This document shows, one piece after another, positions 5,224 through 31,221 of a stretch of 40,205 bases of DNA (its first letter is position 1; every line of letters starts with the position of its first letter). The stretch comes from Pseudomonadota bacterium (GTDB lineage: Bacteria; Myxococcota_A; UBA9042): the NCBI GenBank assembly GCA_005792545.1, contig SXRM01000293.1, positions 1 to 40,205 on the forward strand, written 5' to 3'. The position numbers and the translations under genes were made by a program. The notes under the pieces were generated by a model. The model saw only the letters and a program-made list of their open reading frames with translations. It had not been told where the DNA came from and made no database searches.

Positions 5224-8200
5224 ATGGGTGAGCGCCGCGGCGGCAATGTGCGTGGGCTGGCGGCGACGTCAGCGTGTGCGCGGATCTGCGCGCTGGTCGC
5301 TTTGTTGACTGGCTGCCTGCAAGAAATCGACACCAATCCAGACAGTTACGCGTGCCTGACTGCCGACGAGTGCCGGCCGCCGCTGGCTTCTGCCGATGTT
5401 GCCGTGGATGCAGCGCAGCCCGACGCGCAACCCGAAGACAGCGGAGCGGATACGCCGGCCGACCCCGGGCCGGGCGATGGCGTCGCAGCTGACGCAGACG
5501 CACTGCCGGAGACCAACACCGACGCTGTCGCGGACGCCGACGCAGAATCGAGCGACGCCGCGAGCGATACGACACAGGTGCAGGCCGACGCCAGCGCGGG
5601 CGCGAGCGGCGATGCCACCGCCAGCGCCGACGCCGGCCCGGCGTGCGCCGGTTCCTGCGACGACGGCAACCCGTGCACCCACGACGCCTGCACGGCCGGC
5701 GTGTGTACCCACAAGCCCGAGACCGGCCAGCCGTGCAACGACGGCGATGCTTGCACGGCCAGCGACGCCTGCAAAGCCGGCGCGTGCACGGGGGCCAAGA
5801 CCGTGTGCTCACCCGCCGACGGCTGCCACGTGGCTGGGGTGTGCAACCCGACGACGGGCACCTGCTCGGCGCCGCTCGCCGCGGACGGCACACCGTGTAC
5901 CGATGGCAACGTCTGCACGGTCGGCGACGCCTGCCAGTTCGGCGTGTGCCTGCCCAAGGCGATCACCGACTGCGACGACGGCAACCCGTGCACGGTCGGC
6001 GCGTGCAGTCTGCCCAAGGGCTGCAGCTACTCTGCCTCCGTGGGCGGCGAGGCATGCAACGACGCCAACCCGTGCACCGAGAAAGATGCTTGCGCAGCGG
6101 GCAAGTGCGCCGGCAATGCGACCGCGTGCAGCGACGGCAACGTCTGCACCGCCGATTACTGCGACACCGTCAAGGGATGCGTCGGCATCCCCAGCGCGGC
6201 GACCTGTACCGACGGCAACGCCTGCACGGTCGGCGACGCCTGCACCGACGGCGCCTGCAAAGGGGGCTCGAGCAAGCCCGACTGCGACGACAAGAACGCC
6301 TGCACCAAGGACAGCTGCTCCGAAGTCTCTGGGTGCGTGCACGTGGCGATCGCCGAGGTCTGCGACGACGGCGACAAGTGCACGACCGGCGACAAGTGCA
6401 GCAACGGCGCATGCGCCGCGGGAACCTGGACCTGCCAGTGCCAAAAAGACACCGACTGCGCCAACAGCAACCCCTGCGCGATCGCCATCTGCAGCGGCAA
6501 CCAGTGCGTGTACAGCACCAAATCGGGGCCGTGCGACGACAAGAACCTATGCACGACCGGCGAGACCTGCGCCAACAGCGCGTGCGGCGGCGGCAAGCCT
6601 GTGTCGTGCGACGACGGCCAAGTCTGTACCGCCGACGGCTGCGACCCGGCCAAAGGCTGCGCGTCGGCGCCCGCGCCGGTACAAGACAGCAACTGCGGGC
6701 TCAACGGCCTGGTCAGCAACGGCCGCTGCTATCGCTGCATTGCAGTCAACGACCTCAAGCTGGACGCCGCCGAGGCGGAGTGCGCCAAGCTCGGCGTGGA
6801 TGCCCACCTGGTCAGTATCGCCAGCAAGGCCGAGAACAATGCCGCGCACTCAGCCATGCAAAAAGGGTGTTCAGTTCCGAATGCCTGGATTGGGCTGAGC
6901 GCCTCGCTGGCAACGGGCGCCAAGTGGAGCGACGGGTCGGCCGTGACCTACGTCAATTGGGCGGCCGGCGGGCCAAACGTAGCCGCCTGGGTCGCCACCA
7001 TGCAGCAAGTAGAGGGCGCGTGGGGTACGACCGGGGACGTCAACAAGACTTTGAAAGCCGCGCTGTGTGAAAAGCCGTACGAAAAGCCGTGCGACGACGG
7101 CAGCGTCTGCTCGGCGACGAGTTTTTGCCAGGCCGGCAAGTGCACGGCCGGCTTTGCCGCCACGCCATGTGACGACGGCAAGCCGTGCACCCAAGACAGC
7201 TGTGACCCGGCCAAGGGGTGCGTCGCGGTGACGTTGCCCGACGGCACCAATTGTTCCAACGCCTCCTGCTCGGCGGGTGTCCACATTGGGCCGGGCAGTT
7301 GCACTACGGGCACCTGCTCTGGGGTGGTGCAGAAGAACTGCGGCGACGGCAACGTATGCACTGCCGACACCTGCGAGGCAGCCAAAGGCTGCTCCAGTGC
7401 GGCCAGCGGCACCGCGGCGTGCAGCGACAACAACCCGTGTACGACCGGCGACGCTTGCGCCAACGGCACCTGCAAAGCCGGTTCAGGCACGCTGGCGTGT
7501 GACGACGGCAATAGCTGCACCGACGACAAGTGCGAAAGCGGCAAGGGCTGCACCGCGGCGGCAAAGAGCTATGCGGGCGTTTCGTGCAGCGGTTTCACCT
7601 GGAACAACCACTGCTACGAAGCCTTCCAGGTCACCGGCAACTACGCAGCCATGATCAGCAAGTGCCAGGGCATGGGCGGCACGCTGGCCACCATCCATTC
7701 GGCGGACGAAAACGCTCAGGTGCTCGCCGCGGCCAACAAGGTTTGCGGCAAGGCGGTCAGCACTGGGGCGCTATTTGGCCTCAAGCAGACCATCGCCGCC
7801 GACAACAGTAGCGACCAGTGGCTCGATGGGTCGCCGGTCACCTACACCAACTGGTATGCGGGCGAGCCCAACGGCGCCAACGAACCCTATGGCGGCATGT
7901 GGCTCGACACCGGCACCTGGAACGACTTTGGCGAACCCACCAGCCAGTGCGCCGTGTGCGAGCGCCTGCTCGGCGTCGCGTGCAACGACGCCAACATCTG
8001 CAGCCAGGGCGATGTTTGTGGCAACGGCGTGTGCGGCGGCGCACCTTTGTCGTGCGACGACAAGAACGGCTGCACGGCCGAAGCCTGCGACCCCAAGCTC
8101 GGCTGCACCTTCACGGCGTTGGCCGCAGGCGCCGTGTGCGCCGGGGCCAGTTGCGACGGAGTCAAGTACGCGACCAAATCGACCTGCCAGGCGGGCGCCT

Positions 8201-9846
8201 GTGTGCAGACAGCGCCGACCACCTGCAACGACGGCAAGGACTGTACCAGCGACCAGTGCGACGCCACCAAGGGTTGCTTTGCCACCGCCTACACCTGCGC
8301 AGACAACAACCCGTGTACCGACGACAAGTGCATTGGCGGCGGCCAGTGCAGCTATCCGGCAGTGGCGGACGACGCAGCGTCCTGTAAGGGCGAGATGTGG
8401 CGCGGTCACTGCTACGAGGCCGCCACCGGCAGCAACCAGTCGCTCGACACAGTCAAGAGCGCATGTGCCGCCAGCAAAGGCTGGCTCGCCAGCATCCACA
8501 GCGCCGACGAGAACGAGGCGGTGCGATTGGCGGCCAACAAAGGCTGCGGCAGCGTCATCGAAGCCCTTTTCGGCCTGGTGCAGACCAACGCAAACGACAA
8601 TATCACCCACAACTGGCTGGACGGCACGCCCTACTCGTACCAGAACTGGACCGCAGGCGAACCGTCGCTGGCCGCCGAACAGCGCACCCGCATGCACAAG
8701 GGCACCGGCAAGTGGAACGACACCACCATGACTGCTGGCAACATGTGCTGGGTCTGCGAACGCGTGCCCGGCACCACTTGCGACGACAAGAACCCGTGCA
8801 CCGTCAACGACGGCTGCTTTCTGGGCGACTGCACCGGCGCGCCACAAACCTGCGACGACGGCGTGGCGTGTACGCTTGACCAGTGCACGGCGGCTGCAGG
8901 TTGCAGCAGCGCGGCCGGCAAGAAAGGCGCGCAGTACACGCCGCTATTTTGCGACTTGCCCGCTGCCAGCAAGCAGTGCGCCACCAATGGCGTGTGCGAT
9001 TCGGTGCCTGCGGCGTGCGCCGGCAAAGTGTGCGGCTACGACGGCGCGCTCGGCGACTGCGGCAAGTGTGGCATTGGCAACGTGTGCAACAAGAACGGCC
9101 TGTGCTCAGCCAAGACCAACTTCGCGCAAACCGACAAGGTGCTGGTGTCGGGCGGCGCTTTCAGCATGGGCTGTTCGGCCTGGAACGACACCTTCTGCGA
9201 CGCCAATACCTTGCCGCGCCATGTCGTCTACGTCAGCAGCTACTACCTGGATACCTACGAAGTTTCGCAGGCCAAATACAAGGCGTGCGTTGCCGCCAGC
9301 AAGTGCTCGCAGCCGAGCGGCGGCTACGACGCGACCGAGGACAGTAAGCCCATCGTGAAGCTGACTTGGGCACAAGCGAGCGGCTACTGCGGGTGGGCGG
9401 GTGGCGACCTGCCGACCGAGGCGCAATGGGAGTTCGCCGCGCGCAGCATCGACAAGGGCGTCAGCACAACGATCTATCCGTGGGGCAACAATTGGCCGCC
9501 ACCCTTGCTGGCCGACATTGGCAACACCGGCATCGCGTCGCTCGGCGACCCGTACCCGTATGCCCACGACGCCAACGTCTGCTACGAGAAGAACGCCGTC
9601 GGCGCCTGCAACATGCTCGGCAACGTCAGCGAGTGGACCCGCGACTGGTACACCGCCTACTACCCAACCAACCTGACGGTCAAAGACCCACTGAACACGA
9701 CTGCCGCTTCCCAGCGCGCCTTTCGCGGCATGAGCTGGTTCTTTTCGCTGCCGGCAGAGGCGGCGCCATACCGCCGCTTCTTCTATGACCCCAACGTCGT
9801 CTACTCAAACATCGGCGTGCGGTGTGCGTATGCGTTCACCCAGTAG
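5224..9846 (+). CDS. Giant lipoprotein: Cys repeats, three C-type-lectin-like domains, FGE-like domain
   Basis: The product has 1540 residues; the start is ATG at 5224 with a purine-rich GGGGCGAGG upstream. The lipobox is LTGC (Cys31), followed by an Asp/Ala-rich linker to about 137. About two dozen CDDGNPCT-type repeats are interrupted by three C-type-lectin-like domains at roughly 493-620, 787-918 and 1056-1181. Domain 2 keeps the classical calcium/sugar motifs (GEPN, then TWND). Domain 3 has GEPS and KWND. Domain 1 has lost both (GGPN, AWGTT). Residues about 1303-1538 are an FGE/sulfatase-modifying-factor-type domain: GGAFSMGC, DTYEVSQAKYKAC, LPTEAQWEFAAR, YPWGNNWP, NMLGNVSEWTRDWY, GVRC. 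The paired active-site cysteines of true formylglycine-generating enzymes are not evident near the C-terminus (FRGMSWFFSLPAEAAPYRRF), so it is probably a binding fold. An outer-membrane surface, glycan-binding role is inferred. Confidence 0.9.
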   Translation: MGERRGGNVRGLAATSACARICALVALLTGCLQEIDTNPDSYACLTADECRPPLASADVAVDAAQPDAQPEDSGADTPADPGPGDGVAADADALPETNTDAVADADAESSDAASDTTQVQADASAGASGDATASADAGPACAGSCDDGNPCTHDACTAGVCTHKPETGQPCNDGDACTASDACKAGACTGAKTVCSPADGCHVAGVCNPTTGTCSAPLAADGTPCTDGNVCTVGDACQFGVCLPKAITDCDDGNPCTVGACSLPKGCSYSASVGGEACNDANPCTEKDACAAGKCAGNATACSDGNVCTADYCDTVKGCVGIPSAATCTDGNACTVGDACTDGACKGGSSKPDCDDKNACTKDSCSEVSGCVHVAIAEVCDDGDKCTTGDKCSNGACAAGTWTCQCQKDTDCANSNPCAIAICSGNQCVYSTKSGPCDDKNLCTTGETCANSACGGGKPVSCDDGQVCTADGCDPAKGCASAPAPVQDSNCGLNGLVSNGRCYRCIAVNDLKLDAAEAECAKLGVDAHLVSIASKAENNAAHSAMQKGCSVPNAWIGLSASLATGAKWSDGSAVTYVNWAAGGPNVAAWVATMQQVEGAWGTTGDVNKTLKAALCEKPYEKPCDDGSVCSATSFCQAGKCTAGFAATPCDDGKPCTQDSCDPAKGCVAVTLPDGTNCSNASCSAGVHIGPGSCTTGTCSGVVQKNCGDGNVCTADTCEAAKGCSSAASGTAACSDNNPCTTGDACANGTCKAGSGTLACDDGNSCTDDKCESGKGCTAAAKSYAGVSCSGFTWNNHCYEAFQVTGNYAAMISKCQGMGGTLATIHSADENAQVLAAANKVCGKAVSTGALFGLKQTIAADNSSDQWLDGSPVTYTNWYAGEPNGANEPYGGMWLDTGTWNDFGEPTSQCAVCERLLGVACNDANICSQGDVCGNGVCGGAPLSCDDKNGCTAEACDPKLGCTFTALAAGAVCAGASCDGVKYATKSTCQAGACVQTAPTTCNDGKDCTSDQCDATKGCFATAYTCADNNPCTDDKCIGGGQCSYPAVADDAASCKGEMWRGHCYEAATGSNQSLDTVKSACAASKGWLASIHSADENEAVRLAANKGCGSVIEALFGLVQTNANDNITHNWLDGTPYSYQNWTAGEPSLAAEQRTRMHKGTGKWNDTTMTAGNMCWVCERVPGTTCDDKNPCTVNDGCFLGDCTGAPQTCDDGVACTLDQCTAAAGCSSAAGKKGAQYTPLFCDLPAASKQCATNGVCDSVPAACAGKVCGYDGALGDCGKCGIGNVCNKNGLCSAKTNFAQTDKVLVSGGAFSMGCSAWNDTFCDANTLPRHVVYVSSYYLDTYEVSQAKYKACVAASKCSQPSGGYDATEDSKPIVKLTWAQASGYCGWAGGDLPTEAQWEFAARSIDKGVSTTIYPWGNNWPPPLLADIGNTGIASLGDPYPYAHDANVCYEKNAVGACNMLGNVSEWTRDWYTAYYPTNLTVKDPLNTTAASQRAFRGMSWFFSLPAEAAPYRRFFYDPNVVYSNIGVRCAYAFTQ

Positions 9847-16091: not shown

Positions 16092-19000
16092 CTACTTGCC
16101 ATCACAGTTGTCATCCACCAGATTCTGGTACGTCAGCCCCATCAAGTACCCGGTCTCCTGCGTGCAACTGCCCGTCAGCCCGGCCAGCAGCACGCGCTTG
16201 CCGACCAGCGCCACCGCCGCCGTGCCGCCGTACTGGCCCTGGTAGGCGTTGAGGTTGAGCTGCGTCGGGCTCCACGCTCCAAACGCCGTGGTCAAGTACA
16301 GGTTCTGCGACGGCACTAGCGCGTGTGCCGCTCCATTGTCGTCCACGGTCAGGCCGAGGCCCGTCGCAGACGGGTATTGACTGCCCATGCCGACCTGGCC
16401 CACCTGCACCGGCTCTGACCACGTCCCGGCTTTCCACACCATGTACATCAGCTTCTCCGGCGCCGGCGACACCGCCGGCTTGCGGTACAACACATGCCGC
16501 ACGTCCTGCGCGTCGATGGCCAGCGCCACGTCGGCCGCGGCCTCGGCCACCAGCGTCGAGATGACCCAGTTGTTGGTGCCGGAGCGGGTGGCCATGCGCA
16601 CGTTCTTGCCGCCATAGATGGCCACCAGCATGCCGTTTGGCGCAATCGACAACTCCTGGGTGCCGCCGGTGCCAAACGACGGGTCAGGGATCTCCGTCGG
16701 CGAGGCCACGCCCGCCTTGACCCGTGCGTAGCGCATCACCTGATTGCCGGCGTCGTACCAGGTCAAGTGGGCAGTGCCGTCGCCGGCCATCGCGATGGAG
16801 CACGGCGTCAGCGCCTGGGTGCTCGGATCGACGGTGACGATGGGGTTGGCGGTGCTCCAGGTGCCACTGGCGTAGCCCATGCCTTTGGGAGAATAGCCGG
16901 TGGTCTGGGTAATGGTCCCGCACGCGTGCCAGCCACCGCCCTGGGTTACAGCCATCGAGCCTGCGCGCACCGCGTTGGCCACTTGAAACAACCGCCACTC
17001 ATAGGCATTGCCCAGCCAGCGCGCCACGGTCTGGGCGCCGTAGACCAGCCCCACGCCGACCGGGTCGGCGTTGCCGATCTTGGCCCGCGGCCCGGCCCAG
17101 CCGACCATGCCACCCTGGCACCACTCGCTGGTGGCGCCGCGGTCGGCGTACTCGAGCGTAAACGTGCTGCCCTTGCGGGTGCCGAGCTTGACCCGCTCGT
17201 AGTAGCTGCCGTTGTTCTGGCTGTTGAAGGCGACGTAGACCTCGGTGCCCCAGGTCGCTACGGCGGTGGACGTCGACTTTTGCACTGGCTCCAGTTGCGA
17301 AGTCACCCAGGTCCCCTGCTTGCCGATAGCAAACCGCGCCTGGCCGCTGTCGACGTTGACGTAGCTGATGTGCACATTGCCTGCGGCGCTCGTCGCCAGG
17401 CTGGTGTACTGGCCGACCGTGCCGGTCTGCTCGACGATTTCGGTCTTCCAGGCGCCACTGAGGTTGGTGGTGTAGAGCAGGTCGCTGCCAATCAGCTCAT
17501 AGTGGCTGATGTGGACCTTGCCGGCGTTGTCCAGGCCCAGGGACGCGTAAAAACCGGCGGCGCTGACGGTTCCGTCGATGATCTTGGCGCTGAACACGCC
17601 GGGACTGCTCTCGTCGGTCGCATAGCGCAGATCCTGGTTGGTGTAGTCCAGGTAGGCCAGGTGCACCGCGCCTGAGGCATAGACGCCGAGCGACACGAAC
17701 TGGCCGACGTCGTTTTGGCTGTCGACAACGACCGGCGTCCACTTGCCGCCGTCGTTGTTGGCGTAGCGCAAGTCGCCACTACTGTTGTCGTAGTAGGCGA
17801 TGTGCACCAGGCCCCCCGGCCCGCCGCTCAGCGCCACAAAGTCGCCGATGCCGGCCTTGGTCTCGACGACTTCGCTGAACCAGCCCTGGTTGGTGCGCCA
17901 GGCGTGGCGCACGGCCTTGTTCTTGAGGTCCTGGTAGGCCAGGTGCGGCACACCCTGGCTGTCGATGGCCAGCGCATGGGCGCCGACGTCGGTCTTCTCG
18001 TCGACCACTGCGCGCACCCAGTTGGGGTTGCCAGCCTCGCGCGACCACACGTACAGCAGGTTCAAGCTGACGCCAAGGGCATTGCTCTGCGCTTTGTTGG
18101 CCAGCCACTGGGTGCCATCGATAGCGACCTTAAGGTTGGGGCCGGTCGTCGGTTGGTAGTTGTACTGCGGCACGCTCATCTGGACCTTGTGGTCGATGTC
18201 CACTTCGAGCTTTTCGACCGCGCCGGGGTTGATGGCGTTCTTGGTGTCTTCGCAGTCGCCGCCGCCCTTGGTGCAGGTCTTGGGGTTGGCAGGGCCTTTG
18301 CCCAGTTGCATCTTGCTGTCGCACCAGTCGTCGTTGTCGTCGTCGCAGCCGTCGTCAACGCCAGACTTGCAGTCGTTGTCAAAGTCGTCGCACACCTCTG
18401 GCTGACCGGGAAAGCAGGTGGCGCAGTTGTCGTCGCAGTCGTCGCCGCCGCAGCTGGTCGGCAAATGCCCATCGTTGTCGGCATCTTTCTTGCCTTTGGG
18501 CGTGCACTTGCCCTTGAGGCACGACTCGTCGCTGGTGCAATTGTTGTTGTCATTGCACAGGTCGCCGTCGGGCAGTGCCGTGTAGACGCAGCCTTTCTTG
18601 GGATCGCAGCTGTCGGTGGTGCAGGGCTCACTGTCGTTGCAGACCAGTTTCGGGCCCCCCAGGCAAATACCGTTGCTGCACTTGTCGCTTTGCGTGCACG
18701 AGTCGCCGTCGTTGCAGACCGTGCCGTCGACGAGCTTTTGGTACACGCAGCCTTTGGCTGGGTCGCACAGGTCCTGGGTGCAGCTGTTGCTGTCGTCGCA
18801 GTTGGTGGGCTTGGTCGACTTGCAGGCGCCACCACCGCAGGTATCGGCGTCGGTGCAGGCGTTGCCGTCGTTGCACTGCAACGTGTTGGGCGCAAACGCG
18901 CAGCCGCTTTTGGGTTCGCAGGCGTCGTCGGTGCAGGCGTTGCCGTCGCTGCACGGCAGCTGTCCCGCGCCCAAGCACTGGCCGCCATTGCACTTGTCGC

Positions 19001-21596
19001 CGCTGGTGCATGCGTTGCCGTCATTGCAGCCGATGCCCTGATTGTTGGCGTGGGCGCAGCCGGTCTTGGCGTTACAGTTGTCAATGGTGCAGGGGTTGTT
19101 GTCGTCGCAATCGAGCGCCTTTTGCGGGGTGCACACCGCGGTCTTGCAGACGTCGCCGTCGGTGCAGACGTTGCCGTCGTCGCACGGCAAGGTGTTGTGG
19201 TTGTGCACGCAGCCGGCTTTGGGGTCGCAGCCGTCTGACGTGCACGGGTTGGCGTCGTCGCAGGGCAAGCTCGCACCCGGCTTGCACAGTCCGCCGGCAC
19301 AGGCGTCGCTCACCGTGCACGAGTTTCCGTCACTGCAGCTGACCCCGTCGAGCGGCGACGAGGTGCAGCCCTTGTTGGCATCGCAGACGTCTTGGGTGCA
19401 CGGGTTGTTGTCGTCGCAGGCGGCGGCGCCGTACTTGCCGAGGCAACTACCCTGCTTGCAGGCGTCGCCGCTGGTGCAGCCGTTGCCGTCGTTGCAGCCG
19501 CCGCCGTCGTTGGTGGGGGCGATGGCACACTTGCCGCTTTTGGCGTCGCACTGGCTCTTGACGCACTCGGCGCCGTTGCCAATCGGCGGCGGGCACAGGA
19601 TGACCGTGCCGGGATCGACCTGGCAGGTGTGGGTGATCTTCTCGCAAAACAGCGTGCCATTGCACAGGTTGCCGTCCTCTTTGGCGACGCAGTCGCTGTT
19701 GGCGGTGCACTCGCCGCAACCGAACGCGCCCGCCTGACACTGGCCGCCGGCGCAATAGTCGCCCTTGGTGCAGGCGTCGCCGTCTTCGCACGCGCCGCCC
19801 TTTGCGGCCTTGGTGCACCCCGACTTGGCGTCGCAACTGTCGGCAGTGCAGGCGTTTTTGTCGTCGCAGATCATCGGCTGACCGACACACGCCGCGCCGG
19901 TGGCCGTGATCTCGCAGGCATCGCTGACGGTGCACAGGTCGCCGTCGGTGCAGGCCGCGCCGGCCTTGGGGCCGTGGGTGCAGCCGGTCTTGACGTCGCA
20001 CGCGTCGGCGGTGCACGGGTTCTCGTCGTCGCAGGGCAGCTTGCCGAGGCCAATGCACTTGCCACCGAGACACCCGTCGCCGAGCGTACACGCGTTGCCA
20101 TCGTTGCAGGCCCCGGCGTTGTAGAAGTGCTTGCACGCCGCCACCCCGCCCTGCAGCGCGTCGCAGCCGTCGTCGGTACAGGGGTTGGCATCGTCGCACT
20201 TGCTCTGGGTGGCGATGCACTTGCCGGCCGTGCACGCCGCCGCGATGGTGCACACGGTGCCGTCGCTGCACGTCGCGCCATCGGCCAGCGCCACGCCCGC
20301 GCATTGCAGCTTGCCGCTGCTGCCGGCGCTGCACAGGTCGCCGCCGGTACAGGCGTTGCTGTCGTCGCAGGGGCCGCCCGGGGTGGCCTTGTGCGCGCAG
20401 CCGGCGGCCGAGCACGAGTCAAAGCTGCACGGATCACCGTCGTCGCACGACACGCCAATGCCGCTGCACTTGCCTTCTTTGCACAGGTCTTCGTAGGTGC
20501 AGACGTCGCCGTCGTCGCAAGGCTTGGTGACGGTGGCGAACACGCAGCCACCCATCGACAGGTTGCAGGCGTCTTCGGTGCAGCCGTTGCTGTCGTTGCA
20601 GGCGGCCTCGTCGACCTGGCCGTCGCAGTCGTCGTCTTTGCCGTTGCAGGTCTCTGTTGCGGGCTCGGGGGCGTCGCAGGCGCCTTTGCCTTGGGCGCAG
20701 GTCAAGGTGCCGCTGCAAGTGCCGTTGGCGTTCGATTTGCTGCAGGGGGCATTGCCGAGGCCCTCATCGGTCTGGCCGTCGCAGTTGTCATCTTTGCCGT
20801 TGCACAGCTCGGCCGATGGCACCGCGGCGTCGCACAGCGTCAGGCCATCCTTGCCGCACGTCCGCGCGCCGGTGCAGGTGCCAAATGGCGAGGTCTGCTT
20901 GCAAGAAGTGGCAAGCTGCGCGGCCTGGGCGGTCGGGCTACAGGCGCACTGGCCGATTTGCTGGCGGCACTGGCCGGCCTGCACGCCGTTGTGGGTCTCG
21001 CTGGCGCAGAAGTAGCCACCCGGGCAGTCGGCGTCGGCCTTGCACTCGGTGCCGCAAAATGAGCCGTCTTTGCCGTAGTCGATGCAAAACTGGATGCCGC
21101 CACCGAGCGTGTTCTTGCAGTCGGCGTCGACCTTGCAGGGGTCGCAGAGCTTGGGGTACTTGGCGATGCACACGAACACCGCGTCGCTGCCGGGCACCGG
21201 GCCGCAGGCGTAGCCCTTGGGGCAGCTGTCGGTACAGGTCTTGCTGCACTGCTTGCCGGCGGCGGTCGGCAGGCAGGCGGCGCTGGCGCACTCGCTGTTG
21301 TCACTGCACGGCCAGCCAAAGCTGCCGGGGGCGGGCGGCAGGTCGGCGATGGGCGCATCGACGGCTGCATCTACGGCTATTTCGCCGCCCAAATCTGCCA
21401 GCGGCTGTGCACCATCGGGGGCAACGTCTGCCGGGTCGTCGCCGTCTTTGGCGAACACCGCGCCGACATCGACCGTGCCGCCGCCCGTCGTCTCGGGAAG
21501 GCTGGTGCCGGTGGTGTTGGCGGCGTCTTCGCAGGCCGCGAGGCCGAGCGCCAGGCACAGTGCTGCTGCGCTGGCTCCAAAGCTGTTGTTGACCAT
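16092..21596 (-). CDS. Giant Cys-rich lipoprotein with MopE-type motifs and a propeller-like C-terminus
   Basis: The product has 1834 residues; the start is ATG at 21596 with GGGGAGG 7 nt upstream. The lipobox is LAAC (Cys22), with an acidic linker to about 90. A Cys module follows at 92-250 (CSDNSECASAAC, CKADADCPGGYFC). MopE-like acidic motifs are CNGKDDNCDGQTDEG (about 266) and CNGKDDDCDGQVDE (about 319). About 24 CDDGNPCT-type repeats (330-1030) alternate between two spacings. A further Asp-rich block (DNDGHLPTSCGGDDCDDNC, 1033-1096) follows. Residues about 1130-1823 hold units of roughly 50 residues containing GxVHLAYLD and LRYA, which look like beta-propeller blades. The chain ends VDDNCDGK, half of a MopE motif. 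MopE itself is a copper-binding surface protein; metal binding here is inferred from that resemblance. It is paralogous with the 2572-residue protein across argH. Confidence 0.9.
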   Translation of the reverse strand: MVNNSFGASAAALCLALGLAACEDAANTTGTSLPETTGGGTVDVGAVFAKDGDDPADVAPDGAQPLADLGGEIAVDAAVDAPIADLPPAPGSFGWPCSDNSECASAACLPTAAGKQCSKTCTDSCPKGYACGPVPGSDAVFVCIAKYPKLCDPCKVDADCKNTLGGGIQFCIDYGKDGSFCGTECKADADCPGGYFCASETHNGVQAGQCRQQIGQCACSPTAQAAQLATSCKQTSPFGTCTGARTCGKDGLTLCDAAVPSAELCNGKDDNCDGQTDEGLGNAPCSKSNANGTCSGTLTCAQGKGACDAPEPATETCNGKDDDCDGQVDEAACNDSNGCTEDACNLSMGGCVFATVTKPCDDGDVCTYEDLCKEGKCSGIGVSCDDGDPCSFDSCSAAGCAHKATPGGPCDDSNACTGGDLCSAGSSGKLQCAGVALADGATCSDGTVCTIAAACTAGKCIATQSKCDDANPCTDDGCDALQGGVAACKHFYNAGACNDGNACTLGDGCLGGKCIGLGKLPCDDENPCTADACDVKTGCTHGPKAGAACTDGDLCTVSDACEITATGAACVGQPMICDDKNACTADSCDAKSGCTKAAKGGACEDGDACTKGDYCAGGQCQAGAFGCGECTANSDCVAKEDGNLCNGTLFCEKITHTCQVDPGTVILCPPPIGNGAECVKSQCDAKSGKCAIAPTNDGGGCNDGNGCTSGDACKQGSCLGKYGAAACDDNNPCTQDVCDANKGCTSSPLDGVSCSDGNSCTVSDACAGGLCKPGASLPCDDANPCTSDGCDPKAGCVHNHNTLPCDDGNVCTDGDVCKTAVCTPQKALDCDDNNPCTIDNCNAKTGCAHANNQGIGCNDGNACTSGDKCNGGQCLGAGQLPCSDGNACTDDACEPKSGCAFAPNTLQCNDGNACTDADTCGGGACKSTKPTNCDDSNSCTQDLCDPAKGCVYQKLVDGTVCNDGDSCTQSDKCSNGICLGGPKLVCNDSEPCTTDSCDPKKGCVYTALPDGDLCNDNNNCTSDESCLKGKCTPKGKKDADNDGHLPTSCGGDDCDDNCATCFPGQPEVCDDFDNDCKSGVDDGCDDDNDDWCDSKMQLGKGPANPKTCTKGGGDCEDTKNAINPGAVEKLEVDIDHKVQMSVPQYNYQPTTGPNLKVAIDGTQWLANKAQSNALGVSLNLLYVWSREAGNPNWVRAVVDEKTDVGAHALAIDSQGVPHLAYQDLKNKAVRHAWRTNQGWFSEVVETKAGIGDFVALSGGPGGLVHIAYYDNSSGDLRYANNDGGKWTPVVVDSQNDVGQFVSLGVYASGAVHLAYLDYTNQDLRYATDESSPGVFSAKIIDGTVSAAGFYASLGLDNAGKVHISHYELIGSDLLYTTNLSGAWKTEIVEQTGTVGQYTSLATSAAGNVHISYVNVDSGQARFAIGKQGTWVTSQLEPVQKSTSTAVATWGTEVYVAFNSQNNGSYYERVKLGTRKGSTFTLEYADRGATSEWCQGGMVGWAGPRAKIGNADPVGVGLVYGAQTVARWLGNAYEWRLFQVANAVRAGSMAVTQGGGWHACGTITQTTGYSPKGMGYASGTWSTANPIVTVDPSTQALTPCSIAMAGDGTAHLTWYDAGNQVMRYARVKAGVASPTEIPDPSFGTGGTQELSIAPNGMLVAIYGGKNVRMATRSGTNNWVISTLVAEAAADVALAIDAQDVRHVLYRKPAVSPAPEKLMYMVWKAGTWSEPVQVGQVGMGSQYPSATGLGLTVDDNGAAHALVPSQNLYLTTAFGAWSPTQLNLNAYQGQYGGTAAVALVGKRVLLAGLTGSCTQETGYLMGLTYQNLVDDNCDGK
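18530..20615 (-). repeat. Array of about 24 CDDGNPCT-type repeats
   Basis: Units of about 22-25 codons begin with C[DN]D[GNKA]NxCT. Two spacings alternate along most of the array: C-T-x2-D-x-C (for example CTADAC) and C-T-x3-D-x-C (CTVSDAC). Near-identical 15-20-nt blocks recur across this gene and the two related giant genes. Confidence 0.85.
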
Positions 21597-23228: not shown

Positions 23229-23516
23229 CTATTTGACGATGATCTGGCCCTTCATGCCAAACGAGGCGTGCGGCGCGCAGACGTAGTAGTAGGTGCCGGC
23301 CTTGGCAAACGTCACCTTCTTGGTCTGGCCAAAGCCCACCGAGAAGCCGTCGGGCACCGGCACTGCGTCGCCAGCCTCCCAATCGGACTGCGCCACCTCG
23401 ACCACGTTGTGGTTGCCGGGCAAGGCGAACTCGACCGAATCGCCCGCCGCGATCGCCAGCGGCGTCGGCGTGAAGGTAAAGCCACTGGTAGTGACTTTGT
23501 GCACGGTCGGCGGCAC
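23229..23516 (-). other. Type 1 copper (cupredoxin) domain of the giant lipoprotein
   Basis: Residues about 2479-2572. Beta-sandwich sequence with FTFTPTPLAIAAGDSVEFAL, then the ligand His in GNHNVV and the C-terminal loop YYYVCAPHASFGMKGQIIV. All four ligands (His, Cys, His, Met) are present in the right order. Such domains are usually free electron carriers; here it is the tail of a surface lipoprotein. Confidence 0.85.
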
Positions 23517-26500
23517 CTGCGCGACAACCTTGATGTCGTCGACAAACCACCCAGGCCCACTATTACCAAAGCCGTCTTGCGTGTTGAAGTTGAAGCGGAT
23601 CTTGATCTTCTTGCCGGCGTGGGCGGACAGGTCGACCGTGACCTGCACCCACTTGTTGAGGTCCGCAGCCACGTTGACCTTGAAAGCCGGGACCACGGTC
23701 GTGCCCACCAGAACCTCGACTGTGCGCAGTTCGAAGTTGTTCTCTTGCACGCCACTGTACGACTGGAAGGTCAGGACGGTCGGGCCAGCGACCGTCAAGT
23801 CGATCTCGGGCGACGTGGCCGTGCCGCTCGACACGCCGCCGGTGCCGCCATAGCCGCTGCCGTCGTTGAAGTTCAGCGAACAGGTCGGCGAAAACGCTGC
23901 CGGCGTCTTGGGGGTGTCGTCAATGCCCCAGCCCGTGCCATTGCTGCCCTTGGCGCTGAGCGTCCAGCCGGCAGTGTTGCCACAGGCGGTGAAGTTCTCG
24001 ACATACTTGTCCACGGGCTTGCAGATGTTGGTTGGACCCTTGCAGGCGGAGGCCGTGCAGACGTCGCCATCGGTGCACGGATTGCCGTCGTCGCAGGTGG
24101 CGCCGTCCTTTTGGGGCGTGAAGGTACACAGTGCCTGACTGCCGTTGACGGAGCAGGCGTCGGTGGTGCACGGATTCTTGTCGTCACAAGCCGGGGTTGT
24201 GCCGCCGCACTTGCCCGTCTTGCACAGATCGGCGTTCAGGCACGGGTTGTTGTCGTTGCAGGTCGTGCCGTCGGCGACATTGCTGGCGCCAGTGCAGACG
24301 CCCACCTGGCAGACGTCGCCGGCGGTGCAGGCGTTGTTGTCGGTGCAGGTGGTCTTGTCGGCTTTTGGCTGACCGCCGATGCACTTGCCGGCTTTGCAGC
24401 CCTCTGCCGTAGTGCAGTCGTTGTCGTCGCTGCAGATCGCGCCGTCGGCCATCGCGACCGCCGTGCAATCGCCGCTAGCGGGCACGCAGCTGTCGGTGGT
24501 GCAGGTGTTGTTGTCGTTGCAGACCTTGACGATGCCCGCGCAGGCAGAACTGCCGCACTTGTCGGCGAGCGTGCATGCATTGCCGTCGTCGCACGGATCA
24601 GTGTTTGCCGCGTTGACGCAGGCCCCGGAGCTGACGGTGCAGGTGTCGGTTGTGCACGGGTTGCTGTCGTTGCAGTCGCCATTGGCCTTGCAACTGGCGT
24701 CGCCGATGGTCAGGTTTTCGATGAACGCGCCGACCGTGGCGTTGCTGGTGCAGTTGGTCGCCGCGAACGAGAACTTCACGCGAAAGCGCTGGCCGATGAA
24801 TTTGCTGGCATCCAACTGCACGACTTTCCAGTAATTCGCGCTGTCATAGGTGGCGGTGACGGCCGTCGCCGTCGAGTTGACTGGCAGTAGCGCGACGTCG
24901 AGGTTGTCGAAGCTGTTGTTCTCCCATGCGCCGCTGTACTGGAACTTGACGTGCAGCTTGGTGCCCGTATAGCCGGTGGCGTCGATGACCGGCGACAGCG
25001 CTTTGCCGCCGACCTTGGTGGCGCCGGTCGGGCACTGGAAGTCTACGTCATTGTTGAAGTTCAACGAGCAATCGGGCGACAGGAAGCCCGGCGGGTTGGG
25101 CTTGGCATCGACCTTCCACGCCGGACCCGGCTGCGGCGGGTCATTGAGGATCAGCCACGAAGTCATCGGGTCAGTGCACTTGAAATCGTTGGCATACGGC
25201 GGCTTGACCTCCGAACAACCGTTGATATAGGCGTACTTGCAGCCGGTCTTGGCGTCGCAACTGTCGGCGGTGCACTTGTCGCCGTCGTCGCACACGATCG
25301 GCTGGCTGCCCTTGCACACGCCAGCCTGACAAGCGCTGGCCTGGGTGCACACATCGCCGTCGTTGCACAGGTTGCCGTTGAGCGGCTCGGATACGCACTT
25401 GGCCTTGTCGCACTTTTCGACCGTGCACATTTCGGCGTCCGGCGGACACTCGCTGTCTTGCATGCAGCCCGCGTTGGCGACGGTGCTGATGCTGACGTCG
25501 TCGATGAACCAGCCAGCGCCATTGTTGGCGGCGCTGTCGCCGCTGTCGAAGCGGAAGCGGAGCTTGATGGTCTTGCCGGCGAACTGCGCGAGCGAAATGG
25601 GCGCCGGCTGGTACCACAGCTTGGTCTTGCTCTCGGTCAGTTGGAATGACAGCGCGGTCGTGACAAAGTTGTCCGTAGAAAACTCCACGAACTTCTTGTC
25701 GTAGCTGCTGCCGGTCTCGCTGTCGTAGTAGGTCCACCACTTGAGGATCTGGCCGGGTTCAATGGTGATGGCCGGCGAGTCGGCCGTGCCCTTGACCGTG
25801 CCTGCAAAGTCCACGCCGTTGTTGAAGTTGAGCGAGCACGGAGCGCTCTTGGGCGCCGGCGGGTTGGGCGTGGCGTCAAAGGCCCACACACTGCCGCTCG
25901 AAGCCGCGCTCATCGTCCAGCCGGTGGTGTTGCAGTCCATCGGAAACGAGGCTGCGACCGTACAGGCGCTGGTTGCGGCCTTGCACACGCCAGCCTTGCA
26001 CGCCTCGTTGATGGTGCACTGGTCGCCGTCGCTGCAGGGGGCGTCCTCGGCCATCGGCACGTTGGCGCAGGTCTTGCCGCCGGGACCATTCTGGGTGCAG
26101 TTGTCCAGCGTACAGGGGTTGCCGTCGTCGCAGGCGTTGCCGCCCTGACACTTTCCAGACAGACACTTGGGGCCCGCCGCCACACAGCCGTCCGAGGTCG
26201 AGCACGATGCGCCGTCGGCGGCCGCCATTTTGGGCACGCATTTGCCACTCGCGCACGCGTCGCCGACCGAGCACGCGTCGCCGTCGTTGCACACGAGGTT
26301 GTCGGCCACCGGCAGGCCAGTGCACTTGCCGCCAGCGCACGCATCCTTGTCGGTGCAGGCGTTGCCATCGCTGCAAATCGCCGCGTCGTTCAGCGGTGTG
26401 TACACGCAGCCCACCGCCGGATTGCAGCTGTCACTGGTGCAGGCTTCGTTGTCGTTGCAGACCTTGCCGGGACCCGCGGCGCAACTGCCTGCTTTGCAAG

Positions 26501-29500
26501 TGTCGGCGAGCGAGCAGGGGTTGCCGTCTTCGCACGGCGTGCCGACCAGCGGCGCGTAGGTACACTTGCCGCTGGCGCAGGTGTCCTTGGTGCAGGCGTC
26601 GCCGTCGCCACAGTTGGCATCGGTCTGGCAAGCCAGTGCCACGTCGGTCCAGATCGACAGGTCGTCGACAAACCAGCCGGCGCCGCTGTTGACGTTGCAG
26701 TTGACCGAGTCGAAGCGGAAGCGAACTTTGATTTCCTTGCCGGCCAGCGGGGTCAGGTCGACAGCGACCTGCTTCCACTGGGTGTTGGTGCTGTCGTTAT
26801 CGAGCAACAGCGACACAGGCACGGTCTTGAAGTCGTCGGCGCTCGCCTCGATCCAACGCAAGTCGGCGGCGTCGGGCGTGCCAGTGCCGGCCCACGACCA
26901 GACCTTAAGCAGCGCCGCCTTGGCGCCGAGCAGGCTGTAAGTCTTGGCCGAAACCGCGCTGCCTTCGACCTTGCTCGCCCCGGTCGGACACGCAAAATTC
27001 TGGCTGTTGTTGAAGTTGAGCGAGCACAGTGGCGAGAAGTAGCCGGGGCTGGCGGCGCTGCTGTCAATGGCCCACTGCGCGGGCGTCGGATCGGCGGGCG
27101 GCGGCACTACCCAACCGCCCTTGCCGCAGTCGAACTTGTCGGTGGCGGCGCTGCTGCAAGGTCCAGCGGCGCCCACGCACTTGCCGGCCTTGCAGGCATC
27201 GGCGGCGGTGCACGGATCGTTGTCGCTGCACGAGGCGTTGTCGGCCAGCGGCGTGTTGGTGCAGGCGCCGCTGGTGGCCGCACAACTGTCAGTGGTGCAC
27301 GGGTTGGCGTCGTCGCACTTGGCGCGACCGACGCACTTACCGCCTTTGCAGTTGTCGTCAATGGTGCAGTTGTCGCTGTCGCCACACGAGAAGCCTTCGT
27401 CGGCATTGGCGTACTTGCAGCCGATCACCGGGTCGCAGCTGTCGATGGTGCAGGCCGCGTTGTCGTTGCAGTTGGTGGGGGTCGGGCCCAAGCAGCCGCC
27501 GGCACCATTGCAGAGGTCGCCCGTGGTGCACTTGCTTCCGTCGTCGCACGGCAGCTTGTTGAACGGGAACTGGCAGGCGCCGTTGACGCACTTGTCGTCG
27601 GTGCAGGCGTTGCCGTCGCCACACTCGCCGTCGCCGGCGCAGCCTTTAGCCTTGTCGGTGATGACGACCAGGTCGTCCACGAACCAGCCGACGCCGGTGT
27701 TGGTGACACAGTTCAGTGAGTCGAAGCGGAAGCGCACCTTGACCGCCTTGCCGGCGAGCGGCGACAGGTCCATGGCCAGCAGCTTCCAGGCACCGAGGGC
27801 GGTCGAACTGTTGTCGAGCTTCCAGCTCAACGCCACCGTCTTGAAGTCGTCGCCGCTGACTTCGACCCAGCGCTGGTCGGTGTAGTTGTCGGCGTTGACG
27901 CCAGCCCAGCTCCAGAACTTGAGCACGGCCTGCTTGCCGCCGGTCAGGTCGAGCGCCGCGCCGAGCGTCGCGGTGCCGGCAACCTTGGTCTGACCAGTCT
28001 GGCAGGTGAAATTGGTGCCGTTGTTGAAGTTGAGCGAGCACGCGGCCGACTTGTAGCCGGGCGGCAACGGCGAAGCGTCGACCGACCAGCCGCTGTGGGT
28101 GGGCGATTCCGGCAGCGGCGCGACCACGAAGGCCTGGGCTTCCGTGCATGCGATGGCCATGCCATACGCCACCGAGCAAGGTCCGGCGGTGCCGGCGCAC
28201 TTGCCCGCGGTGCACTGGTCGCCGGCGGTGCAGGCGTCGATGTCGCTGCAAGGCGTTCCGTCCGGCGAGTTTGGCGCTGCGCAGGTGTAGGTGCTGACGT
28301 TGGGGGTGCATTTGTCGTCGGTGCAGGGGTTGCCGTCGTCGCAACTGGGCGCCGCAACGCACTTGACGTTTTCGCAGTGGTCGAGCTTGGTGCACGGGTC
28401 GCCGTCGTTGCAGGTGGTGCCATCGGCGATCGGCTTGAACACGCACTGGCCGGTCAGCTTGTCGCAGGTGTCGGTGGTGCAGGAATTCTTGTCGTCGCAA
28501 GGCACTGCGGCGCCGGTGCAGAAGCCGCCCGTGTTGCAGGCGTCGTCGGTGGTGCACTTGTTGTTGTCGTCGCACTTGCCGGCGGCCGGCGTGCCTTGGC
28601 AGAAACCATCGCTGCACTTGTCGTTGCTGGTACAGCCGTTCTTGTCGTCGCAGGGGCCGGTCATCGCGGGTGCGCCGCCGCACTTGCCACCCGCGCACTT
28701 GTCGTCGATCGAACACGGATCGCCGTCGTCGCACGCGGCGGTGCTCGGGGCGTAGGTGCAGGCGCCGGTCGCCACCGTGCAGGAGTCGGTGGTGCATGGA
28801 TCGCTGTCGTCGCAGCCCTTGTCATCCTTGCACGTGGCGTCGACCACGGTCAGGTCGTCAATGAACGGACCGGGCGTGGCGTTGCCGATGCAATCTGTGG
28901 TGTTGAAGGCGAAACGCAGCTGGATCTTCTTGCCGGCCGCGTTTGGCAACAAGAAGGCCCTGGGGGCGTAACCACCGCCGACCGGATTGTCCAGATCGAC
29001 CAGTTGGGCCCATGTCGCGCCACCATCCAGGCTCAGTTCCAGCACCAGGTTGTCGTAGCTGCCATTCTCCCACATGCCGGCCAGCCAGAACTTGACCTTG
29101 ACCTGGGCTTTGGGGTCGAGCTTGCCGAGGTCCAAGACCGGGCCGGTCGCGTACGACTTGGCAATGCCGCCACCAGTGGCCGGATCGACGCATTCAAAGT
29201 CGTTGCCGTTGTTAAAGTTGAGCGCGCACGCCGCCGACTTGGCGCCGGGCGGGTTGGGCGTCGCATCCAGGCCCCAGCCGCCGGTCGAATTGGCGGGCTT
29301 GCCGTCGAGCTTCCAGTCGGTCGCCGTGCAGGCGAAATCGGTCTTGTACAAATCGCCCGGCACGCAGTTGGGGATGGGAGCGCTCTGGCAGCCCTTGGCC
29401 GGATCGCACGAGTCGGTCGAGCACGGGTTCTTGTCGTCGCAGTCGCCGGCCGGCTTGGGCGTGTTCTGGCAGCCTTTCTGCTTGTCGCAGCTGTCCAGGG

Positions 29501-30947
29501 TGCACAGATTGCCGTCGTCGCAGGCACCGTTGTCGCTCAGGCACTTGGCGGCCTTGCAGACGTCTTTGGTGCAGGCGTCGCCGTCGCTGCAAGCCTGGGT
29601 GTCGTCGGCGACGTTGGTGCAGCCACCCTTGCTGTCGCAGCCGTCCTTGGTACACGGGTTCTTGTCGTCGCAGCCGGCCGCCGAACTGACGCACTTGCCT
29701 GCCTTGCAGCCGTCGGTGGTGCACTCGTCGCCGTCGGTGCAGGTGGCGGTGTCGGGCAACGCCGCGTTCTTGCAGCCGTCTTTGGCGGCGCAGCTGTCGG
29801 CAGTGCACACGTTGTTGTCGTCACACAGGCCAGCCTTGTCGTCGACAGTGCCGCTGCAATCGTTGTCGACGCCGTCGCACAACTCGACCGACGGGGTGGC
29901 CGCAGTGCATGGGGTCAGCCCAGCGGCGGTGCAGGTGCGGTCGGCCTTGCAGGCGCCGTTGCTGCAGGTGGTGCTGGCGCCGACGGCGATCGCGGCCGGG
30001 CTGCACTTGCACACAGCGTTGTCTTTGGGCTTGCAGAACTTGCCCTTGGCGCCGGCCACGTCGGTACCGTCGGCGCAGCTGTAGCCGTCGGGGCAGTCCA
30101 GGTTGAGCAGGCAGCCAAAGCCGCAGAAGCTGCCCTCGTTGCCAAACGCCACGCAGGCCCCGGCCTTGCCGGCCGCCGAAGGCTGGGCGCACTGGTCGTT
30201 GGCTTTGCACGGCGAGCACAGCGCGATGTCCTGCTCCAAGCACAGCGCCTTGCCGGCGGCCTTGGCACACGCGAAACCGGCCGCGCAGGCGTCGTTGGCG
30301 CCGCAGTTGGCGACGCACACCGGCTTACCGAGCAGGTTGACGCCGCACTCGCCGCTGGTGCAGTCCTTGGCCTCTTTGCAGGCGCAACCCGTCGCACCGG
30401 GGCAGGCCGGGCCGGCGTCGGGGGCGGTCGTCTCGCCGCCCGCGTCGCCGATGTCGGCGACCAGGGTCGTTTCGCTGCCCGCGTCGTCGGTGTCGGGGCC
30501 GACCGCGGTCTCGCCGGCGGTCTCCGCGGCGACGTCTTGCACGGTCTCGCCCGCGGTCTCCGGGGCCGTGTCTGGGGTTACTTCGGCCGTGGTTTCGGGC
30601 TCGGCGTCGGGACCGACCTCGGGTGCGACCTCGGCGGTGGCGTCGTCGGTGTCAGGCGCCGTCTCCGGCGCGGCCGCGTCGGTCGCCGCATCCGTCGTCG
30701 CGTCTGGTGTGGCAGTGGTGGTGTCGGTCGCAACGCCGTCTTCGCCACCGCCGCCGGTGGTGTCGGTGGTCACGTTCTGGTCGGCCACGGCGCCGCTGTC
30801 GGTGCCGGTGTCGCCGGTGGTCTGGCTGCCGCCGCCGACCCCGGCGCCGTCGCCGCAGGCCATCAGGAACAGCACGGCCAGGATGCCGGAAATACGCCAC
30901 AAAACCGACGCGCGAGCGCGCGCGCCAAAAGCCGCCGACGTTGTCAT
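23229..30947 (-). CDS. Giant Cys-rich lipoprotein with six jelly-roll-like domains and a C-terminal cupredoxin
   Basis: The product has 2572 residues from the ATG at 30947, chosen for GAGG 6 nt upstream and the lipobox LMAC (Cys31); the frame is open upstream to 31100. A Thr/Asp/Glu-rich linker leads to a Cys module homologous to that of the 1834-residue protein (LCSPCKANDQC, GNEGSFCG, ELCDGVDNDCSGTVDD). About 40 CDDGNPCT-type repeats separate six domains of about 170 residues, at roughly 532-710, 927-1103, 1267-1441, 1662-1830, 1915-2086 and 2311-2478. Each has a CSLNFNNGxxF motif and most end GWFVDDI; a MAM/concanavalin-like jelly roll is likely. The last 94 residues are a type 1 copper domain: His2513 (GNHNVVEV), then Cys2557, His2560 and Met2565 in CAPHASFGM, the C-x2-H-x4-M loop of pseudoazurin and plastocyanin. 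The ligand set is complete, so copper binding is likely. Surface location is inferred. Confidence 0.92.
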   Translation of the reverse strand: MTTSAAFGARARASVLWRISGILAVLFLMACGDGAGVGGGSQTTGDTGTDSGAVADQNVTTDTTGGGGEDGVATDTTTATPDATTDAATDAAAPETAPDTDDATAEVAPEVGPDAEPETTAEVTPDTAPETAGETVQDVAAETAGETAVGPDTDDAGSETTLVADIGDAGGETTAPDAGPACPGATGCACKEAKDCTSGECGVNLLGKPVCVANCGANDACAAGFACAKAAGKALCLEQDIALCSPCKANDQCAQPSAAGKAGACVAFGNEGSFCGFGCLLNLDCPDGYSCADGTDVAGAKGKFCKPKDNAVCKCSPAAIAVGASTTCSNGACKADRTCTAAGLTPCTAATPSVELCDGVDNDCSGTVDDKAGLCDDNNVCTADSCAAKDGCKNAALPDTATCTDGDECTTDGCKAGKCVSSAAGCDDKNPCTKDGCDSKGGCTNVADDTQACSDGDACTKDVCKAAKCLSDNGACDDGNLCTLDSCDKQKGCQNTPKPAGDCDDKNPCSTDSCDPAKGCQSAPIPNCVPGDLYKTDFACTATDWKLDGKPANSTGGWGLDATPNPPGAKSAACALNFNNGNDFECVDPATGGGIAKSYATGPVLDLGKLDPKAQVKVKFWLAGMWENGSYDNLVLELSLDGGATWAQLVDLDNPVGGGYAPRAFLLPNAAGKKIQLRFAFNTTDCIGNATPGPFIDDLTVVDATCKDDKGCDDSDPCTTDSCTVATGACTYAPSTAACDDGDPCSIDDKCAGGKCGGAPAMTGPCDDKNGCTSNDKCSDGFCQGTPAAGKCDDNNKCTTDDACNTGGFCTGAAVPCDDKNSCTTDTCDKLTGQCVFKPIADGTTCNDGDPCTKLDHCENVKCVAAPSCDDGNPCTDDKCTPNVSTYTCAAPNSPDGTPCSDIDACTAGDQCTAGKCAGTAGPCSVAYGMAIACTEAQAFVVAPLPESPTHSGWSVDASPLPPGYKSAACSLNFNNGTNFTCQTGQTKVAGTATLGAALDLTGGKQAVLKFWSWAGVNADNYTDQRWVEVSGDDFKTVALSWKLDNSSTALGAWKLLAMDLSPLAGKAVKVRFRFDSLNCVTNTGVGWFVDDLVVITDKAKGCAGDGECGDGNACTDDKCVNGACQFPFNKLPCDDGSKCTTGDLCNGAGGCLGPTPTNCNDNAACTIDSCDPVIGCKYANADEGFSCGDSDNCTIDDNCKGGKCVGRAKCDDANPCTTDSCAATSGACTNTPLADNASCSDNDPCTAADACKAGKCVGAAGPCSSAATDKFDCGKGGWVVPPPADPTPAQWAIDSSAASPGYFSPLCSLNFNNSQNFACPTGASKVEGSAVSAKTYSLLGAKAALLKVWSWAGTGTPDAADLRWIEASADDFKTVPVSLLLDNDSTNTQWKQVAVDLTPLAGKEIKVRFRFDSVNCNVNSGAGWFVDDLSIWTDVALACQTDANCGDGDACTKDTCASGKCTYAPLVGTPCEDGNPCSLADTCKAGSCAAGPGKVCNDNEACTSDSCNPAVGCVYTPLNDAAICSDGNACTDKDACAGGKCTGLPVADNLVCNDGDACSVGDACASGKCVPKMAAADGASCSTSDGCVAAGPKCLSGKCQGGNACDDGNPCTLDNCTQNGPGGKTCANVPMAEDAPCSDGDQCTINEACKAGVCKAATSACTVAASFPMDCNTTGWTMSAASSGSVWAFDATPNPPAPKSAPCSLNFNNGVDFAGTVKGTADSPAITIEPGQILKWWTYYDSETGSSYDKKFVEFSTDNFVTTALSFQLTESKTKLWYQPAPISLAQFAGKTIKLRFRFDSGDSAANNGAGWFIDDVSISTVANAGCMQDSECPPDAEMCTVEKCDKAKCVSEPLNGNLCNDGDVCTQASACQAGVCKGSQPIVCDDGDKCTADSCDAKTGCKYAYINGCSEVKPPYANDFKCTDPMTSWLILNDPPQPGPAWKVDAKPNPPGFLSPDCSLNFNNDVDFQCPTGATKVGGKALSPVIDATGYTGTKLHVKFQYSGAWENNSFDNLDVALLPVNSTATAVTATYDSANYWKVVQLDASKFIGQRFRVKFSFAATNCTSNATVGAFIENLTIGDASCKANGDCNDSNPCTTDTCTVSSGACVNAANTDPCDDGNACTLADKCGSSACAGIVKVCNDNNTCTTDSCVPASGDCTAVAMADGAICSDDNDCTTAEGCKAGKCIGGQPKADKTTCTDNNACTAGDVCQVGVCTGASNVADGTTCNDNNPCLNADLCKTGKCGGTTPACDDKNPCTTDACSVNGSQALCTFTPQKDGATCDDGNPCTDGDVCTASACKGPTNICKPVDKYVENFTACGNTAGWTLSAKGSNGTGWGIDDTPKTPAAFSPTCSLNFNDGSGYGGTGGVSSGTATSPEIDLTVAGPTVLTFQSYSGVQENNFELRTVEVLVGTTVVPAFKVNVAADLNKWVQVTVDLSAHAGKKIKIRFNFNTQDGFGNSGPGWFVDDIKVVAQVPPTVHKVTTSGFTFTPTPLAIAAGDSVEFALPGNHNVVEVAQSDWEAGDAVPVPDGFSVGFGQTKKVTFAKAGTYYYVCAPHASFGMKGQIIVK

Positions 30948-31038
30948 GCGTTGCCTCGAACTGGAGCTGGGTGGGACCGCGCGCCGACCCGCGCGCTTCG
31001 CAGCGTTCGCCGCTGGGGGGACGGCAACCGGGGCGGGC

Positions 31039-31068
31039 AGTGTAACGAAGTGTGAATAGCCGGCGCAA
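31039..31068 (-). promoter_or_regulatory. Possible promoter of the cupredoxin giant gene
   Basis: Read on the minus strand: TTGCGC (31068-31063), 18-bp spacer, TACACT (31044-31039). The predicted leader is about 85 nt. The -10 matches at four of six positions. Confidence 0.35.
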
Positions 31069-31221
31069 GGCGGCGCGGACGATTGTTGCCTTGGCGTCAC
31101 GGTGGGGCTGATTGCCTGGACGGCACTGGCGGCGGATTCAGGGCCAGATGCGAAGTCGTTCCAGTGGCCTGAATGTTGGGGGCATGTTCTGCCACCCTGA
31201 TTCCGCCCCTACGCCGTGAAG

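Follow-up and report, generated by a model that had tools for sequence, protein, structure and literature searches.

Cupredoxins are usually small, diffusing carriers. Halocyanins are membrane-associated prokaryotic cupredoxins, and in Laz, the lipid-anchored azurin of Neisseria, the azurin domain sits on a short linker. Laz has been reported to be surface-exposed in the meningococcus; in the gonococcus it was found in the periplasm, as an electron donor to cytochrome c peroxidase (PMC6277709). Direct interspecies electron transfer is accompanied in Methanosarcina by the induction of a membrane cupredoxin (PMC6315138) and, therefore, the idea that anchored cupredoxins may act outwards has already been put forward.

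The stretch of DNA analysed here (40,205 nucleotides, called the window in what follows) carries on its minus strand a gene at 23229..30947, with an ATG start at 30947 and the stop at 23229, which encodes a predicted lipoprotein of 2,572 aa. The open frame covers 23229-31100 (-) and gives 2,623 aa when counted from a GTG at 31100; the ATG lies 51 codons inside this GTG frame, and the 2,572-aa form corresponds to the numbering of the first-pass annotation. The ATG is the likelier start because it stands directly ahead of the signal peptide (MTTSAAFGARARASVLWRISGILAVLFLMAC). The orthologue in genome G002 has a matching start (MTTSASFG), and the GC3 pattern of the giant gene is that of a real gene. 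Over aligned stretches the identity is 80% with the G002 orthologue and 64% with that of G005 (L031, "Myxococcales bacterium Baikal-deep-G136"), whose tip is 76% identical to the tip of the window protein.

The protein had been annotated as a surface lipoprotein with a Cys-rich stalk of about 2500 residues, and both the lipoprotein signals and the stalk were found. The signal peptide (30855..30947, -) contains the lipobox LFLMAC at residues 26-31, so that the predicted acylated residue would be Cys31 (codon 30855-30857); equivalent lipoboxes are present in the G002 and G005 orthologues. Counted from Cys31, the mature protein has 2,542 aa and 216 Cys, most of which fall in the stalk (24006..30854, -). 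An Asp/Thr/Ala-rich linker is followed by about 36 CTDC motifs, interrupted by six MAM-like domains of which the first five belong to the stalk as delimited here, and then by the copper domain. This description is based on PF00526 (the CTDC motifs, 13 stretches), on PF20773 (the MAM-like domains, named choice-of-anchor J by NCBI, NF038128) and on motif counts. The sixth and last MAM/choice-of-anchor-J domain (23511..24005, -) is matched by NF038128 at residues 2367-2525 and by PF20773 at residues 2476-2526 of the GTG form, and the copper domain adjoins it directly and closes the protein. The AlphaFold model, built on a three-sequence alignment, is poor over the MAM half.

The C-terminal domain, or tip, comprises the last ~93 residues (2480-2572; 23232..23510, -) and was delimited with PF00127, an alignment of tips (A1), an AF2 model and Foldseek. 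PF00127 (Copper-bind) spans residues 2536-2623 of the GTG form with an E-value of 5.1e-12 and a score of 46.5 bits (cut-off 21.2), and therefore this match is not due to chance. All four ligands of a type 1 copper site, which had been listed previously, are at their places: His2513 (codon 23409..23411, -) and, within the loop C-x2-H-x4-M (23253..23279, -), Cys2557 (23277-23279), His2560 (23268-23270) and Met2565 (23253-23255). In the alignment this loop has the same length as that of plastocyanin. The conservation of the ligands in orthologues, on which the copper assignment had been made to depend, was followed across the 24 tips of A1, which were taken from different stalks and include one from Bacteroidetes. 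Three of the four ligands are invariant (His34, Cys78 and His81, 24/24), while the axial Met86 is kept in 23 of the 24, the sole exception being a Glu in G008. In that protein (C88, L060 4830-6689) the adjoining Cys/His domains are without most of the HCPH motifs, and it stands as a single case. The AF2 model of the tip, although only three sequences were in its alignment, has pLDDT blocks of about 80-93 that cover most of the domain, and Foldseek matches it to plastocyanins, pseudoazurins and one phytocyanin (E about 1e-5 to 1e-4). When sequence profiles are compared with solved structures, plastocyanins, which are electron carriers, rank first (E 3e-16), ahead of amicyanins and pseudoazurins. 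The predicted structure is thus that of a cupredoxin beta-sandwich.

To which kind of cupredoxin the tip is closest can be judged from the NCBIfam models. It scores 41.8 bits with the plastocyanin model (TIGR02656, cut-off 87.85), 40.1 with halocyanin (TIGR03102, 93.8), 22.7 with pseudoazurin (TIGR02375, 109.85), 21.1 with amicyanin (TIGR02657, 110.2) and 18.5 with rusticyanin (TIGR03095, 146.7). The NCBIfam matches with E <= 0.01 include no azurin model, the nearest types being plastocyanin and halocyanin. Since these scores are far under the NCBI cut-offs, the tip is to be placed in the superfamily (PF00127) but outside every named type: as read from the profiles, it is a cupredoxin of the plastocyanin/azurin type, of no named type.

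The tip is not restricted to this gene. It occurs in 9 of the 22 genomes of the window's own family (21 copies, with one to five heads per tip-bearing genome), in 12/52 genomes across the class and in 16/379 across the phylum Myxococcota. When the full genes were read, it was C-terminal on predicted lipoproteins, the lipobox being recognized from its pattern or on visual inspection, and their stalks were of at least five kinds: the giant CTDC and MAM stalk (G000, G002, G005 and G013), CTDC together with an unnamed Cys/His domain (G000 C344, G002, G005 and G006), copies of this unnamed domain by themselves (G000 C353 among others), only CTDC (G001 C18), and a repeat region of another kind (G013 C137). 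A short version of 178 residues adjoins glmU in G007, where G006 has a stalked one, and in other families of the phylum the lipoproteins that bear the tip are short, DADADADA being one example of their spacers. The presence of the tip as the last ~90 residues on varied stalks and on short spacers fits a head with variable tether length, and we regard it as a recurring C-terminal module on predicted exchangeable stalks. The first-pass annotation had called a copper site on such a tether unusual. This has to be qualified, as anchored cupredoxins are known (Laz, PMC6277709), and the tip is found on short lipoproteins in the phylum and on some 21 lipoproteins of the family. In the gene tree of the tips, the copies of the argH locus group together (100/99), as do those of the C344 type (97/97); the deeper order lacks resolution, so the number of moves between stalks is not countable. 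One copy (G013 C19) is cut off by the end of its contig. Another (G002 C13, L061 5957-8479 and 6721-6996), next to glmS, is frameshifted near its end, with the last ligands in another frame, which may be a true frameshift or an assembly error.

The unnamed Cys/His-rich domain of the second and third kinds of stalk has about 160 residues (C..YC...NAQY...CRxYHA...HCPHAG; for instance L027 3682-5442, L046 7104-8981 and L052 6483-8384, A3). Many proteins of the class contain it, some with the copper tip and others not; no Pfam match was found among its carriers, and no solved relative of it was found. The possibility that this "AQY" domain is a copper-loading partner was dropped, as many tip-free proteins contain it and nothing related to it has a solved structure; a role of the tip as C-terminal sorting signal was also discarded, because most stalk lipoproteins have no tip. 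A cupredoxin is also C-terminal in a DUF4331 protein of G023 (L063 4189-6297; PF00127, E 4e-12), a fusion unlike the lipoprotein tips.

The locus itself permits the tip to be considered separately from the stalk. The gene argH (argininosuccinate lyase, PF00206/PF14698; 21678..23153, -) lies 75 bp downstream of the giant gene and is used as a synteny marker only, outside the proposed system. The giant stands directly upstream of argH in G002 and G005, as in the window, and the same order is seen in G008, where the giant lipoprotein (C65, L113 5353-10458; 1,702 residues, CTDC/MAM) has no copper tip: it ends after its last MAM domain, and the ~110 bp up to argH are too few for a tip. From its position this protein is likely to be orthologous to the window giant, bearing in mind that repeats inflate similarity. 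No giant was found beside argH in G001, G003 and G006. The tip-free giant beside argH in another genus (G008) indicates that the tip is separable from the stalk. Where it is kept, the tip is under purifying selection, comparable to that on the stalk, and its dN/dS (0.185 vs G002, 0.193 vs G005; stalk 0.136 and 0.246) is lower than that of the neighbouring MAM domain (0.326 and 0.229). It could be argued that the copper domain is a degenerate or accidental fusion, a leftover with no function, since the G008 giant and 13 of the 22 family genomes do without a tip and the G002 C13 copy is frameshifted. The low dN/dS and the invariance of the ligands, however, and the retention of the tip at the same locus in three species and on several stalks, make this extremely improbable.

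Between 38 and 114 matches to stalk modules were counted in each genome searched; the scaffold is thus abundant, and the tip is an addition that only a minority of its copies carry. In the window itself, the lipoprotein at 16092-21596 has CTDC alone and no copper head. A further CTDC lipoprotein of 1,540 aa (5224-9846, +) has, by eye, inserts resembling C-type lectin domains, and its C-terminal region resembles the formylglycine-enzyme/sulfatase-modifying domain. The abundance of these scaffolds bears on whether the head serves adhesion or recognition, its fold being a binding surface, as in animal ephrins, with copper incidental. The CTDC and MAM/choice-of-anchor-J stalk does resemble a surface adhesin, and each genome has dozens of similar stalk stretches that carry no copper head. 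Nevertheless the ligands are kept across diverse stalks, and a mere binding fold would not need them; we consider this explanation very improbable.

In our opinion the best explanation, with a probability of about 0.7, is that the giant protein is a lipid-tethered one-electron carrier whose reach is set by the stalk. The acylated N-terminal Cys would serve as membrane anchor, probably in the outer membrane, and the CTDC motifs, rich in disulphides, would together with the MAM-like sandwiches form a long stalk of about 2,400 residues acting as a spacer. The plastocyanin-like tip would then bind one copper through His2513, Cys2557, His2560 and Met2565 and cycle between Cu(I) and Cu(II), giving electrons to, or taking them from, a partner within reach of the stalk. 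Of the elements used here, those read from the sequences are the conserved ligands, the model fold, the signal peptide and lipobox, the C-terminal position on varied stalks, the separability of the tip and its purifying selection. The reading is also favoured by the plastocyanin length of the ligand loop and by the electron-carrier plastocyanins as best solved relatives, and Laz is a precedent for a lipid-anchored electron donor. Four points speak against an electron carrier: the lack of an adjacent redox gene, four candidate enzymes that do not track the tip, the 13 of 22 family genomes that are tip-free and the Glu for Met in G008.

A partner was searched for in the gene neighbourhood and by co-distribution. 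No redox gene lies beside the giant lipoprotein gene; the recurring neighbours of the tip genes (argH, glmS and glmU) are housekeeping genes with no redox role, and were retained as synteny markers only. Among the 22 genomes of the family, no association with the tip was observed for nitrous-oxide reductase (3/9 tip-bearing against 7/13 tip-free genomes), Cu-oxidase_3 (2/9 and 7/13), CCP_MauG (8/9 and 13/13) or COX2 (8/9 and 9/13). None of these four enzymes tracks the tip and therefore no partner is supported; moreover, the absence of the tip from 13 of the 22 genomes means that it is not essential to the family's respiration. In G000 a nitrous-oxide reductase (C303, L030 2528-4732; TIGR04246, 857 bits) has an N-terminus that reads like a lipoprotein signal (LALACNPP).

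Conserved ligands with no conserved redox partner are also what would be expected if the head captured or buffered copper, binding it tightly in the envelope for scavenging or detoxification and passing no electrons, and the several copies per genome on different lipoproteins agree with such a role. However, a protein that takes 2,572 residues to hold a single copper would be a poor store, a type 1 site with all four ligands and of plastocyanin length is made for electron transfer, and copper-handling genes were not found next to the tip copies, whose neighbour genes were read by eye only. Copper capture is thus quite improbable.

Coming back to the tethered electron carrier, the place where it would work depends on the length of the stalk. 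Estimated from module counts, the stalk, if extended, would be longer than the width of the periplasm, so that the head could plausibly be displayed beyond the outer membrane; together with the lipobox, this length suggests that the head may be exposed at the surface. As a special case, electrons could be exchanged extracellularly, with the head tens of nm outside the cell and minerals, other cells or surface cytochromes as partners. The same rough length, inferred from motif counts, favours this, as does the up-regulation of the Methanosarcina membrane cupredoxin in direct interspecies electron transfer (PMC6315138). It should be noted, however, that gonococcal Laz is periplasmic despite its lipid anchor (PMC6277709), and that genes for multihaem cytochromes or extracellular electron transfer were not linked to the tip, although they were not searched for systematically; we hold this case to be unlikely. 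A broader proposal, distinctly unlikely in our view, is a modular surface redox system of one lineage of Myxococcota, in which one head on interchangeable, mostly disulphide-rich stalks of 80-2,400 residues would work at several set distances from the membrane, the longest tens of nm outside, and would let cells trade electrons with their environment or with adjacent cells and need no multihaem cytochromes for this.

The same head, with its ligands kept, is found on stalks of varied make-up whose lengths span up to a thirty-fold range, one of them a giant with 216 Cys. Should this head carry electrons, the proteins would provide a natural series of rulers for the reach of a tethered copper centre across, or out of, the Gram-negative envelope. 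Such genomes have many giant Cys-rich lipoproteins, and for a few of these a testable function is thereby offered. No description of a giant stalk with a copper tip in Myxococcota was found in the open-access literature, and to our knowledge all lipid-anchored cupredoxins described so far are on short linkers.

Among known systems, Laz shares with the giant a C-terminal cupredoxin on a lipid-anchored envelope protein, the signal peptide with lipobox and a full type 1 site, but its domain is an azurin, whereas that of the giant is plastocyanin-like and tethered by a 2,400-residue Cys-rich multi-domain stalk. Plastocyanin and pseudoazurin, among the best solved-structure matches, have the same fold, four ligands and C-x2-H-x4-M loop, but they are small soluble proteins and the tip scores under the TIGR02656 and TIGR02375 cut-offs. 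Halocyanin (TIGR03102) is likewise a membrane-associated cupredoxin; it is archaeal, however, and the tip scores under its cut-off too. Closer are the short lipoprotein cupredoxins (G031, G178, G218 and G288), alike in domain family, C-terminal position, ligand set and, where the N-terminus is covered, lipobox, but with a short low-complexity Asp/Ala or Gly/Thr spacer and no folded Cys-rich stalk. Conversely, CTDC/choice-of-anchor-J lipoproteins of the same family (window 16092-21596; G008 L113 5353-10458) have the same modules and design and no copper head. The head is an ordinary one and its anchoring has a precedent in Laz, while the novelty lies in the giant, exchangeable tethers.
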